This document shows, one piece after another, positions 8,459 to 44,025 of a stretch of 64,000 nucleotides of DNA. Source of the stretch: Streptomyces davaonensis JCM 4913 (lineage in GTDB: Bacteria; Actinomycetota; Actinomycetes; Streptomycetales; Streptomycetaceae); NCBI RefSeq assembly GCF_000349325.1, contig NC_020504.1:7226053-7290052 (forward strand), in the 5' to 3' direction. Below the pieces are notes generated by a model. That model was given only the letters and a program-made list of their open reading frames with translations, ran no database searches and was not told the origin of the DNA. Positions within the stretch are counted from its first letter, which is position 1. Each line of letters begins with the position of its first letter. Position numbers and translations under genes: made by a program.

Positions 8459-9340
8459 ATGTACCACACCTGGATGCGGTTCTTCACGCCCGGACCCGCC
8501 CACCACCGCCTCGGCCTGGTCTGCCTCGGCGTCGGCCTCCAGCACGGCGCCCTGCCCACCGTCGGCCCGCGCACCCTCGACCACCACGTCGCCGTCGTCA
8601 TCAGCGCCGGCGGCGGCTGGTACCGCGGCCCCGACGGCCGCCGTACCACCGTCACCGCGCCCGCCCTGCTCTGGCTCACCCCCGGCGTCGCGCACCACTA
8701 CGCCCCCGATCCCGCGACCGGCTGGGACGAGGGCTTCGTCGACTTCACCGGGCCCGCCGCCGCGACGTACACCGAACTCGGCTACATCGAACCGGACCGC
8801 CCCGTCGTGCCGCTCTCCGACGCCGCCGCCCCGCGCGGGGTGATCGCCCGCATCACGCGGGCCGCCCGCCGCGACAACCCGCTGCTGGAGGTCGAGACCG
8901 CCGCCGCCGTCCACGAACTCCTGGTCTCCCTGCGCCGCGCCCGGGCCGACCTCGCGCCCGACGGCGACCAGGTCCTCAAGGCCCTCGCCCGGGACGCCTG
9001 TACCCCGATGACGGTCGCCGACCACGCCGCCCGGCACGGCATGACCGCCGCCGAACTGCGCACCGCCGTCCGCCGCGGCGCCGGATGCAGCCCCAAGGAC
9101 TACCTTCTCGGCATCCGGCTGGGCCGCGCCAAGGAACTCCTCGCCGCCAGCGAACTGCCCGTCGCCGCCGTCGCCCGCCGCGTCGGATACGACGATCCGG
9201 CCTATTTCTCCCGCCTGTTCACCCGCCGCGTCGGCATGCCCCCCGTCCGTTTCCGCGCGCAGCAGGGCCGTGCCGTCCCCGGCGGCTGGAGCGAGCAGGT
9301 ACCGGATCCGGACGATCCGCCGATCATCGAGAGAGCCTGA
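8459..9340 (+). CDS. AraC-family transcriptional regulator
   Basis: A 293-residue regulator. The N-terminal half (about 1-165) is a cupin-like arabinose-binding domain with LTPGVAHHYAPDP as the ligand-pocket loop. The C-terminal hundred residues carry two helix-turn-helix units ending in the AraC signature VAAVARRVGYDDPAYFSRLF. Divergent from the GH35 beta-galactosidase with an 87-bp shared control region, it most likely senses a galactoside or released sugar and activates that gene. It starts with ATG 8459 after GACAGGAGCGG. Chorismate mutase follows 19 bases downstream, perhaps by read-through only. Confidence 0.92.
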   Translation: MYHTWMRFFTPGPAHHRLGLVCLGVGLQHGALPTVGPRTLDHHVAVVISAGGGWYRGPDGRRTTVTAPALLWLTPGVAHHYAPDPATGWDEGFVDFTGPAAATYTELGYIEPDRPVVPLSDAAAPRGVIARITRAARRDNPLLEVETAAAVHELLVSLRRARADLAPDGDQVLKALARDACTPMTVADHAARHGMTAAELRTAVRRGAGCSPKDYLLGIRLGRAKELLAASELPVAAVARRVGYDDPAYFSRLFTRRVGMPPVRFRAQQGRAVPGGWSEQVPDPDDPPIIERA

Positions 9341-9359
9341 GAACGTAGGCTTCTCGCCC

Positions 9360-9710
9360 ATGACCACCAGCAACAACGGAACCGGTGACGTCGACCCCGC
9401 CGTCCGCGCGGAGCTGGCGCGGCTGCGCGACAGCATCGACAACATCGACGCGGCCGTCGTCCACATGCTCGCCGAGCGGTTCAAGTGCACCCAGCAGGTC
9501 GGCCACCTCAAGGCCGCCCACCAGCTGCCGCCCGCCGACCCGGCCCGCGAGGCCCGCCAGATCGCCCGGCTGCGCACCCTCGCCGAGAACGCCAAACTCG
9601 ACCCGGCCTTCGCCGAGAAGTTCCTGAACTTCATCATCGCCGAGGTGATCAGACACCACGAGTCCATCGCCGAGGACGCCGTGGGCGGCGCTGCGCCGAC
9701 GGCGAACTGA
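9360..9710 (+). CDS. Chorismate mutase (AroQ type)
   Basis: A 116-residue all-helical AroQ domain: LARLRDSIDNIDAAVVHMLAER forms helix 1 with the active-site Arg. Helix 2 follows with QQVGHLKAAHQLPPADPARE, and helix 3 is LDPAFAEKFLNFIIAEVIRHHE. It converts chorismate to prephenate at the head of Phe/Tyr synthesis. It is a stand-alone enzyme (no fused prephenate dehydratase or DAHP synthase) in the cytosol. It starts at ATG 9360, 19 bases after the AraC gene. A 10-bp inverted repeat at 9781-9805 lies downstream. Confidence 0.92.
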   Translation: MTTSNNGTGDVDPAVRAELARLRDSIDNIDAAVVHMLAERFKCTQQVGHLKAAHQLPPADPAREARQIARLRTLAENAKLDPAFAEKFLNFIIAEVIRHHESIAEDAVGGAAPTAN

Positions 9711-9780
9711 CGCCCCTCCACCCTCCCGGGGCGTGACACAGCCGCCCGCACGGGGCATGCTGCGCTGTGCACTCCTTGTC

Positions 9781-9805
9781 AGCTGACGGGCACAGCCCGT
9801 CAGCT
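9781..9805. terminator. Inverted repeat after chorismate mutase (terminator or operator)
   Basis: AGCTGACGGG and CCCGTCAGCT flank CACAG, a perfect 10-bp stem. It sits about 70 bases after the chorismate mutase stop and 46 before the response regulator start, so it may end the first transcript or control the second. Confidence 0.5.
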
Positions 9806-9850
9806 TCACGGACATAAGCTGGTTGTCCCATGCGGGAGGGACGTCGGGCC

Positions 9851-10384
9851 ATGCCGTCGCAAGCGAAGATCCTCATTGTCGACGACCACAAGGACACGCT
9901 GTACGCGCTGGAGAGCGCCCTGGCCCCGCTGGGCCACCAGATCTGCCGCGCCACCACCGGCGACGAGGCGCTCAAACAGGTCCTGCGCGGGCAGGTCGGA
10001 CTCCTGCTGCTCGACGTGCGGATGCCCGGCGTCAGCGGTCTGGACGTGGTCAGGTACATGCGCCGCCTGGAACAGACCCAGCACATTCCGGTCATCTTGC
10101 TGACCGGTTTCGGCGCGGACCAGGAACTCACCTCCGCCGCCTTCGGCCTCGGCGTCGCCGACCTGGTGATGAAACCCATCGACCCCTGGGCGTTACGCAC
10201 CAAGGTCCGCTTCCTCTACGACGCCCACCGCCGCCACCGCGCCCTGGAAGAGGAGGTGCGCGAACTGCGCGCCCTCGTCAAGGACCAGGCCGACACCGGC
10301 GAACCCGTGCTCTCCCACCCCGAGGCCAGGGTCCCGCCGCAGCGCGACATCTCCGGCGCGCACCCGGCGCAGGACCGGACATAG
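9851..10384 (+). CDS. Orphan response regulator with a receiver domain only; contains a TTA codon
   Basis: A 177-residue protein: receiver domain at 5-125 with acidic pair Asp11/Asp12, phosphoacceptor Asp55 (LLLLDVRMPG), Thr85 and Lys108 (MKPIDPW). A coiled-coil-like tail REEVRELRALVKDQ and a disordered C-terminus follow. There is no DNA-binding output domain. The start is ATG 9851, because GGGAGGG precedes it at a good distance; an ATG at 9830 lacks a ribosome-binding site. No histidine kinase is adjacent. Leu115 is encoded by TTA (10193-10195), so translation should depend on the bldA tRNA and be linked to development. A partner-switch or scaffold role is a guess. Confidence 0.9.
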   Translation: MPSQAKILIVDDHKDTLYALESALAPLGHQICRATTGDEALKQVLRGQVGLLLLDVRMPGVSGLDVVRYMRRLEQTQHIPVILLTGFGADQELTSAAFGLGVADLVMKPIDPWALRTKVRFLYDAHRRHRALEEEVRELRALVKDQADTGEPVLSHPEARVPPQRDISGAHPAQDRT

Positions 10385-38882: not shown

Positions 38883-39740
38883 ATGGCCAAGGTCGTCGTC
38901 GTACACGGCATCGGGAAGCAGTACCTGGGACCGCACACCCTGCACGGGGGAGTGGCGCCGGCGCTGCTGGACGGCATGAGGGCGGCGGCCGCGCCGGAGT
39001 TGAAGCCCGAGGACATCGAAGTGGCCTTCTACGGCCACTGGTTCCGTCCCCCCGGCGCGAAGAGCGACGACTACGCCTGGACGCACCGCGATGTGACCGA
39101 GGGCTTGGAAACCGAGCTGCTGATGGCGTGGTGGCAGGAGGCGGCCCGCACAGCCCCCGACCGGGTCCCGCCACCAATCCCGATGACCGGGACGACGACG
39201 AAGGCCACGACCCCGCAGACCGTGCAACGCGCCCTGCACGCGATCAGCCGACTCCTCCCGTCCCGCTTCACCGACCGCTTCCTCATCGGCATCCTCAAAC
39301 AGGTCCGCCGCTACCTCACCGAGGACGAGACCCGTGACCGTGTCCAGCGCAGCGTCGCGGAGGTGGTCACCGACGACACCCGGGTCCTGGTCGCCCACTC
39401 CCTCGGCAGCGTCATCGCCTACGAGGCCCTGTGCGCGCACCCCGAGTGGCCGGTGCGCGCCCTGGTGACCCTCGGCTCCCCGCTCGGCATCCCCGGCCTG
39501 GTCCTGGACCGCCTGCGCCCCAGCGCGACCTGGCCGCCCGTCCTGCGCGAGTGGACGAACATCTGCGACCGGGCGGACGTAGTGGCCCTCACCAAGGAAC
39601 TGGCCCCGCTCTTCAAGGGGGCTGACGGCCGGACCGTGACCGACGTACTGATCGACAACGGCAGCCACGCCCACGACATCGTCCCCCACCTCACGGCCGC
39701 GCCGACCGGAGCGGCCGTAGCAGCCGGACTCCAGCCATGA
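38883..39740 (+). CDS. Alpha/beta-hydrolase (lipase/esterase-like), first gene of the caspase-STAND operon
   Basis: A 285-residue cytoplasmic serine hydrolase. The oxyanion-hole HGIG at 8-11, nucleophile elbow AHSLGS (Ser173), Asp near 232 and His264 (SHAHD) make a full triad. Long helical inserts (50-150) form a cap. The start is ATG 38883 with GGGGGAGG upstream; its TGA overlaps the ATG of the caspase gene. Alpha/beta-hydrolases of this kind appear in bacterial conflict systems as effector or effector-associated proteins that attack lipids. It could be the lethal effector or a substrate of the caspase. It has no signal peptide. Confidence 0.88.
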   Translation: MAKVVVVHGIGKQYLGPHTLHGGVAPALLDGMRAAAAPELKPEDIEVAFYGHWFRPPGAKSDDYAWTHRDVTEGLETELLMAWWQEAARTAPDRVPPPIPMTGTTTKATTPQTVQRALHAISRLLPSRFTDRFLIGILKQVRRYLTEDETRDRVQRSVAEVVTDDTRVLVAHSLGSVIAYEALCAHPEWPVRALVTLGSPLGIPGLVLDRLRPSATWPPVLREWTNICDRADVVALTKELAPLFKGADGRTVTDVLIDNGSHAHDIVPHLTAAPTGAAVAAGLQP

Positions 39741-40201
39741 CCCGCCGTACCGTCGTCGTCAGCGGCACCGACGCCTACGACCACGAACTGCCCCCGCTGC
39801 CCCGCGCGGCACCGGACATGGACACGGTTGCCGAGGTGTTCCGCACCCTCGGGTACGAGGACGGCGACCGCCTCCACAACCCCACCGCCGACGGCCTCAG
39901 ACGCGGCCTCGCCGACTGGGCCCGCCGCGCGGACCGCAGCGAGGACGTAGTCGTCCTCTACTACACCGGTCACGGCGAACGCGACGACAAGGGCCACTTC
40001 CTGATGTGCCGCGACAGCGAGTCCGGCCAACTGCGCAGCTCCGCCGTCGAGTCCGAGCGGATCGTGGAGATCCTCGCGGAGAACGGCCTGACGAGAATCC
40101 TCCTGATCCTCGATACGTGTTACGCCGGTCAGGGCGCCGTGGACGCGCTGCGGGCCCTCGCCGGGAGCCTGGCCTCGCCCGCGGTGGACGCGGGCCGATG
40201 A
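39737..40201 (+). CDS. Caspase-like protease, p20-type large-subunit half (peptidase C14)
   Basis: A 154-residue caspase-fold protein: VVVSGTDAYDHELPPLP begins strand 1. The catalytic His79 lies in LYYTGHGE and Cys128 in LILDTCYAGQG. The acidic/basic loop after His (RDDKGHFLMCRDS) is that of bacterial caspases and metacaspases. It stops about 25 residues after the catalytic cysteine, before the small-subunit strands. Those seem to be encoded at the start of the next gene, whose ATG overlaps this stop (ATGA). Its start overlaps the hydrolase gene the same way. It is probably activated by assembly with the STAND protein. Confidence 0.9.
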   Translation: MTRRTVVVSGTDAYDHELPPLPRAAPDMDTVAEVFRTLGYEDGDRLHNPTADGLRRGLADWARRADRSEDVVVLYYTGHGERDDKGHFLMCRDSESGQLRSSAVESERIVEILAENGLTRILLILDTCYAGQGAVDALRALAGSLASPAVDAGR

Positions 40202-43200
40202 CGGACTTCTCGTACATCGCGGCGGCGAGACCCCAGGACCTGGCGACGGACGGGGCGTTCGCCGGAGCCCTGCAAGAGGCGGTTGCGGACCCCCTCCTGG
40301 GCGGCCCGCACCAACGCCACCTCCACCTGAGCGACATCGTCCAGCACATCAACCGCACCCTGCGCACGCGGGGCGAGTTCCAGAAGGCCGTCCACGGCAC
40401 CCTGATCGCGGACGGCGAGACCCCCTTCTTCCCCAACCCCCGCTACACACCAGGCACTCCGGCCGGCCTGGACCTCGCGGAGCAGCGCGTGTGGCTGCTG
40501 AGCAGCGAGGCGCGACGACGCCAGGAGGAACGGGTCAGCCACTTCGACCCACGGGGCCGGGGCAGCGACGCCCCGTCTGGCACGGCGTCGTACTTCACGG
40601 GCCGTACGGCGGTGCTGGGCGAGCTGACGGCTTGGTTGGACGACGATTCGGCGGAGCTGGGGCGCAGTGTGCTCGTCACCGGCGGCGCGGGAGTGGGCAA
40701 GTCGTCGCTGCTGGGGCGGCTGTTGCTGCTGGCGGACCGGGAGGCACGGGAGTCACTGGACGACGGGGACCCGTTGGTGCCTGTGCCCGTGTCGGGCATC
40801 GATACCGCGATCCACGCCCGGCACAAACTGCTGGACGACATCGTGGCCGGGGTCGCCGACGCGGCGGGCGTGCCGGGTGCCGGGCGGCGCGAACTGCTGG
40901 CGGCACTCGGCGAGCGCACGGAACGGCTGGTCGTCCTCGTGGACGCCCTGGACGAGGCGGGCACGGCCGGGGCGGACGAGGAACCGCAGGCCATCGCCCG
41001 CTCCTTTCTGCGCGAACTGGCCGAAGTGCCCTGCGTACGGCTGTTGGTGGGCGCCCGCCCGCATGTGGCGGACGCGTTGGGCCCGTCCTTCACGCGGATC
41101 GATCTGGCGGACCCGCGCTGGCTGGGCCCCGGCGATATCGAACGGTACGCGCGCAAGCTGCTGCTGGCGCCGGACGGGGAGGGTTCGAGCGGACCGTACA
41201 CGGAGGAGTCGGCGGCTCCGGTGGCGGCGGCGGTGTCGGCGCGGGCGGGCGACAACTACCTGTGCGCCCGCCTGATCGCCCGCCCCCTGGCGCGGAGGCC
41301 GCATCCCCTGAACACGGGAGTCGAGGGCTGGGAGAGCCAACTCCCCTCCCTCACGCAGCAGATCGCCCGCCCAGGCGTCGAGGCCGCCTTCAGCTGGGCC
41401 CTGCGCGAACGCATGCCCCGCCAGGAGGAACGGGCCCGCGCCCTGCTCACGCCACTGGCCTTCGCCGAGGGCCAGGGCGTGCCCGCGACGGGGGTGTGGC
41501 AGGCGATGGCCTCGGCGGTGCTGGGCGCCCCGGTCGGCCCCGAGGACATCAGGCGGGCGCTGTCGGCGGACGGCGAACTGATCGAGCTGATCGTGGAGGA
41601 CACGGACGCGGCGGGGCGGTCGGTGTACCGGCTGTACCACGAGTCCTTCGCGGACGCGCTGCGCGAACAGGCGGCGGCGGGTACGGGGGAGCGGGTCGCG
41701 GGGGCGCTGCTGGCGTTGGTGCCGGTGGACGCGGAGACGGGGGTGCGGGACTGGGCGCTCGCGGATCCCTATCTGAGGGCCCACGCGGCCACGCACGCGG
41801 CGACAGCGGGGTTACTGGACGAACTGGTCCTGGATCCGCAGTTCTTGCTGACGGCGGAGCCGATCGCGCTGCGGCGGGCGCTGCCGGTGGTCGCCCGCGA
41901 CGATTCCGTCGCGGCCCGGGCGGCGTATCTGCGGTGTGCGCCGATTCTCGCGTCGGAGCGGTTGGGGGAGGGAGACCGGGTCGCCCAACTCCACATGTCG
42001 GCACTTCAGGAGAGCGCGGAGTCCCTGGCCGCGGCGATCCGGTCCCGGTTCCCCGAACGCCCGTGGGAGGTGCTGTGGTCGCACTCGGCGTCGGCGCCCT
42101 ATCGGGCGTTGGGGGACTCCGAGGCAGTGGTGGAAGACCTCGCGGTGGTGACCTGGCAAGGGCGGGAGGTGATCGTCACGCTGGAGGCCGACAGTCGGAT
42201 ACGGGTGTGGGATCCCGCCACCGGCGAGGGGCTCAGCGAGCTCATGTCGCCGACGGGCGGCAGCGTGCGCAGTGTCTCGGCCTGCGGCGAGACCGATCAG
42301 CCGTGGCTCCTGATGACCACGCGGACGGGGAAGTCTCCGGGGCTCACCGTCTCGGTGATCGACATGTCGACGGGGCTGCCGCTGGGCCCGGAGCTGCCGA
42401 CCAAGGCCCTGGCCCCTGAATCCGTGGCCGCGGCCGAACTCGACGGTACCTGTGTCGTCGCTGTCGGCGAGCCCGGCGAGGTGCGGATTCTGGACGCTCG
42501 CACGGGATGGGAGCTGACCCGGGTCGACGGACTGGCGGAACCGAGGCCCGGCGGCAGCATTCATGTGGCGCTCGGCATGGGGGAGAGATACATGGTCCTG
42601 GCCGCAGCGGTGGGGGCTGCGTGGCAGGACACCTCATGGTGGAGGCGACACGACGCGCAGGTGCGCACTTGGCACCTCGACCCTCGGCAGAGCTGGTATG
42701 TCGTGAACCAGGGCGGATGCGCGGCGCGGGGCAATACGGTACAGGCCCTGGCCGTGCTGCAAGGCGAGGTTCATGTTGCGACCTCCCGCGGGTATCGGAT
42801 GTTCGCCTCTCACCGTGAGAGGGGACTGCACCACAAGACCGTCACCGAGTGGTTCCTTCCCGGGACCGACCTCGGACTGGGCTTCTTCACCTTGGGAGGC
42901 GAGACGCGCTGCGTGCGGGGCGCCGAGACCTTCGTGCGGGTGGACGCCTGGGGCCAGCGCCACGAGCTTCCGACCGGGGGAAAGATCAAGGCAGCGGCGG
43001 TGGTTCAGGCCGGCACCGCGGCACCGGAACTGGTGACGGCCGGGAACGGGCCCGGCATCCGGGTGTGGGACATGCGCCCACGCGGGTGGAACGAGACGCC
43101 TTCCTACCCGACGTATCGAGGACTTGGCGAGCAATGCGTCGCCGCCGAGTTCGATGGGCAACGGGTGCTGGCAACCGGAAGGGCAGATATCGCCCTCTAT

Positions 43201-44025
43201 CATCCGCGCACGGGGGAACGGCTGCGCGAGTTGGGCGTCGTCACAGCGTGGCTGGGGCGTTCCGCCGACGTCGACCTGCCACTCGTGGTGTACGACGCGG
43301 TGGGCGGGGCGCTCTCACGACGTAACGCATGGGTGCTCGACAGGTCCGACGTGCGAGCCGTACCGGTCGACGGGCGGAGGATGGCTGTTCTGTCCAATGT
43401 GACCGTCGTCCGCCTGGGCGAGCGGAGGATGCTGGCCGGGACACAGAATGCCCTGAAGGAAGTGGTGATGCTGTGGGACCTCACCGGTAAGAAGATCCAG
43501 AGCTGGTTCGTCGACGCACCCGCAGACATGAGACTTCGTACCGTCGAGGCCGGTGGCACTCTCTGGCTCGGCGTCAACTCTTACCGCCGCAGCGGTGGTG
43601 GCGCCAAGGAAGTCCGAATCTACCGCTTCCCGGAGGATCAGCCCGCGCCCGACGGCACTGTCGCGATCATGGGTGGAGCCCACGCGTTCGACCTGGGCCG
43701 GTGGCAGGGGAGAGCGTCGATCGCGTACCCCAGCCGGGAGGCACATGCTGTGCTCATTCATGACCTCGCTGACTCCTGTGGAGTCGAGCAATGGGAACTC
43801 CCGCCCGGTGCGGATGTCGTCGACCTCGTTTTCGCCGGCTCCCGGGACCTCCTCGCCGCCGCCACCGCCGACGAGCGTCTCCTCTTCTTTGTGCCGGGTT
43901 CCCCCCACCCCATCGCCACCGTTCATGTGGGAGCCGATATCTGGTCAGTCGCCCCCGTAGACGACCAGGTCATCGGCGTAGCCACCGCCAACGCCCTCTT
44001 CGCCCTTCAGCTCCCGCCCCCCTGA
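40198..44025 (+). CDS. STAND-type NTPase with N-terminal caspase p10-like part and C-terminal beta-propeller-like region
   Basis: 1275 residues. Residues 1-90 resemble the small-subunit half of a caspase fold (YIAAARPQDLATDGAFAGAL, then PFFPNPRY). YFTGR at 132-136 starts the NTPase: Walker A GGAGVGKSS at 162-170, Walker B LVVLVDALDE at 244-253, then LLVGARP. A helical region to about 630 and a WD-like propeller to the end (IRVWDPATGEGL, VRILDARTGWEL, IRVWDMRPRG) follow. Such proteins sense a ligand with the propeller, oligomerise with ATP and activate an effector. Leu539 is a TTA codon. The 3' end overlaps hrpB by 19 bp on the other strand. Confidence 0.88.
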   Translation: MTDFSYIAAARPQDLATDGAFAGALQEAVADPLLGGPHQRHLHLSDIVQHINRTLRTRGEFQKAVHGTLIADGETPFFPNPRYTPGTPAGLDLAEQRVWLLSSEARRRQEERVSHFDPRGRGSDAPSGTASYFTGRTAVLGELTAWLDDDSAELGRSVLVTGGAGVGKSSLLGRLLLLADREARESLDDGDPLVPVPVSGIDTAIHARHKLLDDIVAGVADAAGVPGAGRRELLAALGERTERLVVLVDALDEAGTAGADEEPQAIARSFLRELAEVPCVRLLVGARPHVADALGPSFTRIDLADPRWLGPGDIERYARKLLLAPDGEGSSGPYTEESAAPVAAAVSARAGDNYLCARLIARPLARRPHPLNTGVEGWESQLPSLTQQIARPGVEAAFSWALRERMPRQEERARALLTPLAFAEGQGVPATGVWQAMASAVLGAPVGPEDIRRALSADGELIELIVEDTDAAGRSVYRLYHESFADALREQAAAGTGERVAGALLALVPVDAETGVRDWALADPYLRAHAATHAATAGLLDELVLDPQFLLTAEPIALRRALPVVARDDSVAARAAYLRCAPILASERLGEGDRVAQLHMSALQESAESLAAAIRSRFPERPWEVLWSHSASAPYRALGDSEAVVEDLAVVTWQGREVIVTLEADSRIRVWDPATGEGLSELMSPTGGSVRSVSACGETDQPWLLMTTRTGKSPGLTVSVIDMSTGLPLGPELPTKALAPESVAAAELDGTCVVAVGEPGEVRILDARTGWELTRVDGLAEPRPGGSIHVALGMGERYMVLAAAVGAAWQDTSWWRRHDAQVRTWHLDPRQSWYVVNQGGCAARGNTVQALAVLQGEVHVATSRGYRMFASHRERGLHHKTVTEWFLPGTDLGLGFFTLGGETRCVRGAETFVRVDAWGQRHELPTGGKIKAAAVVQAGTAAPELVTAGNGPGIRVWDMRPRGWNETPSYPTYRGLGEQCVAAEFDGQRVLATGRADIALYHPRTGERLRELGVVTAWLGRSADVDLPLVVYDAVGGALSRRNAWVLDRSDVRAVPVDGRRMAVLSNVTVVRLGERRMLAGTQNALKEVVMLWDLTGKKIQSWFVDAPADMRLRTVEAGGTLWLGVNSYRRSGGGAKEVRIYRFPEDQPAPDGTVAIMGGAHAFDLGRWQGRASIAYPSREAHAVLIHDLADSCGVEQWELPPGADVVDLVFAGSRDLLAAATADERLLFFVPGSPHPIATVHVGADIWSVAPVDDQVIGVATANALFALQLPPP

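Follow-up and report, generated by a model that had tools for sequence, protein, structure and literature searches.

Between positions 38,883 and 44,025 of the window, a 64,000-nucleotide stretch of the Streptomyces davaonensis JCM 4913 genome (NC_020504.1, positions 7,226,053 to 7,290,052), an earlier note described three genes joined by ATGA overlaps, encoding a serine hydrolase, a separate caspase-like protease, and a STAND NTPase with a WD-like C-terminus. The three open reading frames (ORFs) and both overlaps were recovered exactly as described (Table 1). However, comparison with related sequences indicates that the locus is a two-gene system, consisting of an alpha/beta-hydrolase (P0001) and a caspase-STAND-double-propeller protein, and that the large gene is frame-split here. 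The reading that best explains the data, to which we assign a probability of about 0.5, is that the locus is a horizontally acquired conflict or programmed-death module that pairs a lipase-like hydrolase with this large protein.

A caspase divided between two reading frames

The caspase dyad His79/Cys128 is present at the locus and invariant in 29/29 aligned loci, yet ORF2 (P0002) is not a complete, separate caspase, as its Peptidase_C14 match (Pfam, 1.3e-13) covers only profile positions 2-134 of 233. Among the 120 of 199 ORF3 (P0003) matches listed, the closest relatives are undivided proteins, 1427 and 1433 amino acids (aa) long, that include a caspase domain. ORF2 shares 96% identity with residues 1-154 of a Streptomyces sp. 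CC219B protein (P0004), and ORF3 aligns from residue 155 of P0004 to its end at 68% identity, with the break at R154|M155 in the length-variable stretch linking the p20 and p10 halves. The caspase profile was covered nearly full-length within one ORF in 34/34 related loci tested, comprising L031 and 33 of the 37 hydrolase loci fetched (L092, L101, L136, and L137 were omitted); the 33 include two paralogues from the same genome. The large gene ends early in L106, at a contig end, and in L110, L113, and L114, which have short open frames. Because the relatives are collinear and have these nearly complete caspase matches inside one ORF, we place the p10 half at the start of ORF3; an NCBIfam scan of the first 120 ORF3 residues by themselves returned no match. 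The p20 and p10 halves therefore lie on separate ORFs, in departure from the single polypeptide that characterizes Peptidase C14. The split was seen only in S. davaonensis (0/34 other loci), so the separate caspase does not hold as an arrangement, and a three-gene design as a type is ruled out by the two-gene relatives.

Since the split falls inside the p20/p10 linker, the system in S. davaonensis is either crippled or working from two coupled chains. It is quite possible, if somewhat short of an even chance, that a recent frameshift inactivated the caspase-STAND gene and left a nonfunctional remnant, made up of the hydrolase and two orphaned fragments, whose job is done by paralogues at other places in the genome. 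The absence of the break from all other loci is in keeping with this, as are the further caspase-STAND genes with hydrolases in the same genome and, weakly, the lack of stand-alone p20 proteins among the 285 candidates of a P0002 search, which also missed the query itself. However, neither ORF3 nor the hydrolase gene contains a further stop, ORF3 still aligns to the end of P0004, and the break lies in a variable linker and forms an ATGA restart overlap. Programmed frameshifting commonly occurs at a slippery heptamer, and none was seen by eye at the junction; coupled restart at the ATGA appears likelier. Alternatively, a sequencing or assembly error may conceal a true gene that is intact and single, which we consider unlikely. 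The break is found only in the S. davaonensis record and the relatives are uninterrupted, but indel errors are apparently rare in this genome: compared with one relative, 0/104 core orthologues (>=75% identical, 40,838 residues) were frame-broken in S. davaonensis, in a test that is insensitive to breaks near gene ends and leaves room for a single error, and 2/105 were broken in the relative in the reverse test. Both a remnant and an error would concern the strain and not the family, and both are compatible with the conflict-module reading.

Gene linkage and insertion site in Streptomyces

Homologues of P0001 at E<=1e-45 were found at 39 places in 34/246 Streptomyces genomes, with 10 candidates scored per genome. 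The resulting set of 38 consisted of the window locus and 37 fetched loci, the one place left out being the second copy of a same-scoring pair near the chromosome ends. A caspase-AAA gene lies directly downstream of the hydrolase in 31/38 (the AAA part of L092 was seen by Pfam only), and in four others (L132-L135) a caspase-STAND-WD40 gene lies directly upstream, such that the large gene comes first and the hydrolase second. Of the remaining three loci, L137 has the large gene divergent and about 2 kb away, L136 is disrupted, and L101 retains no more than a 46-residue caspase trace. Given that each genome has several thousand genes, linkage in 35/38 loci would far exceed chance. The linkage that the earlier note asked for thus stands for the hydrolase and the caspase-STAND protein, but as two genes in the relatives instead of three. 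The hydrolase and the large gene also share a 4-base overlap in 11/34 relatives' loci (mechanical ORF starts), and as part of the conflict-module reading we propose that the large gene is translationally coupled to the hydrolase gene. A promoter and terminator scan gave no signal exceeding chance.

When searched from the other side, caspase-STAND proteins at E<=1e-60 gave at least 27 matches in 22/150 genomes, a lower bound as 3 candidates were scored per genome. A P0001-like hydrolase gene is directly upstream of 21 and downstream of one, whereas five (L127-L131, in G065, G004, the second copy of G012, G163, and G170) have no neighbor matching the 121 hydrolases; the last of these, L131, is adjoined by an LCAT-type hydrolase gene at 8869-10257. 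In a wider set of 59 loci, a caspase was matched in 26, of which 12 also had a P0001 match in the flanks, which often extended only 1.5 kb. Three of the other 14 (L010, L029, and L030) match an LCAT-type hydrolase. The linkage therefore seems to thin in more distant relatives. Three hydrolases 80-93% identical to P0001 (P0123, P0124, and P0126) have caspase-STAND partners that were not recognized among the ORF3 matches listed.

The cassette is flanked by genes for a PorA-like protein and an HrpB helicase. Among 36 relatives searched, these genes are adjacent in 18/18 that have both on one contig, and among these only the window genome has the 5.2-kb cassette between them. The aligned ends of the two flanking genes are no more than about 330 bases apart in 17/18; in G015, whose helicase alignment breaks off early, the distance is about 1.06 kb. 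Because the flanking genes are neighbors in all 18, the cassette is, judging from these alignments, an insertion into a conserved site. One relative (G011) carries the system on another contig, and a DNA search for a plasmid copy of the locus found none. This distribution bears on a possible role in regulating Streptomyces mycelial death during development instead of in anti-phage immunity, which we hold to be rather improbable. Related conflict systems are enriched in multicellular bacteria, according to the available part of Kaur 2020 (PMC7159879), but presence in 34/246 genomes and an empty site in relatives make for a patchy pattern, and developmental genes would be expected to be more uniform.

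The encoded proteins and a possible mechanism

The serine hydrolase with a full triad proposed in the earlier note is borne out: Ser173, Asp232, and His264 are invariant in 119/119 aligned homologues (121 sequences, less two of <250 aa) and in 29/29 aligned linked loci, and Asp229 is kept in 117. The predicted model and the alignment place a nucleophile elbow and the Ser/Asp/His triad within an alpha/beta-hydrolase fold. Pfam alpha/beta-hydrolase scores are under their gathering cut-offs, and the assignment rests on the fold and the triad. The nearest folds are lysosomal phospholipase A2, LipA, the Nir2 DDHD domain, and LCAT, and this structural similarity suggests that P0001 is a putative lipase or phospholipase; esterase and thioesterase folds score nearly level with the lipases. 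Searches of the PDB for sequence relatives returned only two for P0001 (E 0.26 and 0.41) and none for P0004 at 0.01, and no P0001-like hydrolase was found at E<=1e-5 in 50,697 phage records. Residues 102-108 are the sole stretch of P0001 with a predicted local distance difference test score (pLDDT) of <50, and position 107 is K/R in 105/119 homologues but in only 15/29 linked loci.

ORF3 matches NACHT, AAA_16, and nSTAND1, each exceeding its cut-off, with GGAGVGKS as Walker A and LVVLVDALDEA as Walker B. Besides the Walker motifs, it has the GxRP sensor arginine and the winged-helix histidine of STAND NTPases. The GxGK of Walker A, both Asp and the Glu of Walker B, the Gly/Arg, and the His are invariant in 29/29 loci, and Walker A varies in its first Gly (G or A) and its final position (S or T). 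Loss of these residues, which would have told against the earlier note, was thus not observed. Residues 639-1275 are modeled as all-beta (AF2 pLDDT 84.6), and Foldseek matches this part to double WD40 propellers, including those of Apaf-1 (3sfz and 3shf), with a best E of 2.5e-16 and TM-scores by query length of only 0.28-0.48 over both propellers. The WD40 sequence match of the window propeller is weak (Pfam). A STAND NTPase of 1275 residues with a WD-like C-terminus nonetheless agrees with both the motifs and the model. The propeller is the fast-changing part across aligned loci: compared with P0004, the caspase is 95% identical, the STAND part 88%, and the propeller 49%. Divergence of the hydrolase correlates with that of the caspase at r 0.84, the STAND part at 0.78, and the propeller at 0.54.

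Under the conflict-module reading, one chain of the large protein is proposed to unite sensor, assembly platform, and protease. The propeller would recognize a trigger, the STAND NTPase would then assemble, and clustering would activate the caspase. The caspase may cleave the partner hydrolase, with the single disordered loop as a candidate site, or set it free in some other way, and the hydrolase would attack membrane lipids such that the cell is stopped or killed. Alternatively, the hydrolase could act upstream by producing or erasing a signal, or an acyl modification, to which the sensor responds, while the caspase cuts other targets. The nearly equal scores of esterase and thioesterase folds fit such a role, as does the hydrolase gene being usually first in the operon (31/38). 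However, hydrolase divergence correlates best with that of the caspase and worst with that of the propeller, and the pair is kept where the sensor part changes, as on a cyanobacterial plasmid where TPR/PIN parts, not STAND, follow the caspase; we therefore regard an upstream hydrolase as improbable, to about the same degree as a developmental role. The most doubtful proposal is a bacterial apoptosome in one chain, whose caspase would switch on a gated partner lipase for membrane-lysing immunity, together with a natural split caspase in S. davaonensis, in which p20 and p10-STAND-propeller as two translationally coupled chains would mimic cleaved animal caspases.

Table 1. Positions of features of the hydrolase/caspase-STAND locus within the window
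Feature	Position	Strand	Remark
Alpha/beta-hydrolase gene (P0001)	38883..39740	+	285 aa, lipase-like fold
Hydrolase residues 102-108, variable-length low-pLDDT loop with Lys107, candidate cleavage site	39186..39206	+	
Hydrolase catalytic Ser173 codon (HSLGS)	39399..39401	+	
Hydrolase Asp232 codon, triad acid	39576..39578	+	
Hydrolase catalytic His264 codon	39672..39674	+	
ATGA overlap, hydrolase/caspase	39737..39740	+	
ORF2 (P0002), caspase p20 half only	39737..40201	+	154 aa
Caspase His79 codon	39971..39973	+	
Caspase Cys128 codon (DTCYAG)	40118..40120	+	
p20/p10 frame break (ATGA overlap)	40198..40201	+	uninterrupted in single-gene relatives
ORF3 (P0003), p10-STAND-propeller	40198..44025	+	1275 aa
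Caspase p10 half, ORF3 residues 1 to about 86	40198..40455	+	collinearity with P0004 and others
STAND NTPase core (NACHT/nSTAND1) and helical part after it	40582..42072	+	outer limits approximate
Walker A of ORF3	about 40681-40704	+	
C-terminal double beta-propeller, presumed sensor	42112..44022	+	AF2 model, Foldseek

Known systems and related loci

Like the apoptosome protein Apaf-1, ORF3 combines a STAND NTPase with a C-terminal double WD40 propeller. Apaf-1 recruits its caspase through CARD, whereas proteins of the locus family carry the caspase on the same chain as the platform. If the conflict-module reading is true, the system would be related to the animal apoptosome, in compact form, and would come with a predicted executioner, and protease-activated effectors would extend from nucleases to a lipase-like enzyme. 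In Canu and HamM, a protease is likewise paired with a neighboring enzyme and frees the gated active site of a nuclease (PMC12799240, in the part available); here the presumed effector is a lipase-like hydrolase, for which gating is suggested by one disordered loop only. Metacaspase-NACHT-WD40 proteins described in 2012 (Asplund-Samuelsson 2012, PMC3501461) have the same domain order in one chain as the relatives of this system, but the S. davaonensis chain is split within the caspase, and the accessible portion of that paper is silent on a partner hydrolase.

Two published families come close. In VMAP systems, caspases always occur with a neighboring alpha/beta-hydrolase gene, and a related hydrolase is also mentioned for GAP1-N1 systems, as far as the available sections of Kaur 2020 (PMC7159879) go. 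The locus shares this pairing with the VMAP vWA-MoxR ternary systems but has a STAND-propeller in place of VMAP, MoxR, and vWA; membership is rejected, as VMAP had no match in the locus proteins and MoxR and vWA had none in seven neighboring genes scanned. The EACC1-caspase system also consists of two genes, a 5' partner and a caspase fused to variable parts (PMC7159879, same sections). Its 5' gene encodes a one-helix membrane protein, whereas that of the locus models as a hydrolase. The only NCBIfam match, NF047832, scored 72.4 bits (window p20) and 71.4 bits (P0004) against a cut-off of 140, and with no EACC1 5' gene this membership is rejected as well. Of the comparison with defense collections suggested by the earlier note, PADLOC yielded only a generic caspase match of 24.4 bits. 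Its view that the arrangement is not a named system holds in that the literature searched, which mostly did not extend to subscription papers, yielded no paper devoted to a hydrolase paired with a caspase-STAND-propeller; the caspase/hydrolase pairing and metacaspase-NACHT-WD40 are already published in other settings, and what is new here is this combination and the strain-specific split. The suggested kinship to conflict systems is supported by parts homologous to published ones, the patchy distribution, and the fast-changing propeller. Available portions of PMC8195603, PMC10907252, and PMC10910872 give context only.

The hydrolase-tied caspase-STAND-propeller occurs in Streptomyces and some other Actinomycetes, and a related caspase pair occurs on plasmids of one cyanobacterial species. 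Within the S. davaonensis genome, we found six distinct related loci with an alpha/beta-hydrolase beside each, from a survey that scored 10 of 44 candidates and a separate search that added one locus. P0001-like hydrolases are found in the window, at 7.684 Mb, at 74 kb, and in a copy near both chromosome ends. The last corresponds to same-scoring hydrolase plus caspase-STAND matches in opposite orientation (C1:19268-22677 and C1:9443943-9447352), apparently in terminal inverted repeats. The loci at 480 kb (L188, C1:473000-489000) and 7.018 Mb (L189, C1:7010000-7026000) have paralogous STAND genes, each preceded by an overlapping gene for an LCAT/PGAP1-type hydrolase, a second hydrolase class in the equivalent place. 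The L189 STAND gene has caspase and TPR matches. Common descent of the LCAT-type partners and P0001 is not shown by their profile link, which is limited to 36 columns surrounding the nucleophile elbow. The 480 kb and 74 kb proteins have no Pfam caspase match and are assigned as caspases from alignment, with a below-cut-off NCBIfam match as well for the 74 kb protein.

On Leptolyngbya boryana plasmids, the gene of a 38% identical hydrolase overlaps one that encodes a caspase joined to TPR/PIN parts (L190, 6004-12846), with no STAND match in the stretch covered, to residue 1984. On a plasmid of Rhodococcus ruber, a hydrolase with 41% identity adjoins a WD40 protein whose caspase match falls below the cut-off; genes for recombinase, PIN, and helicase proteins lie nearby, as does an IS1634 transposase. 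In S. davaonensis itself, the P0001-like hydrolase and caspase-STAND-WD40 gene at 74 kb (L187, C1:66000-82000) lie about 1 kb from a gene for Cse1 (type I-E CRISPR), and a trypsin-like peptidase protein (L186, 7512-9524) has a weak P0001 match (29%).
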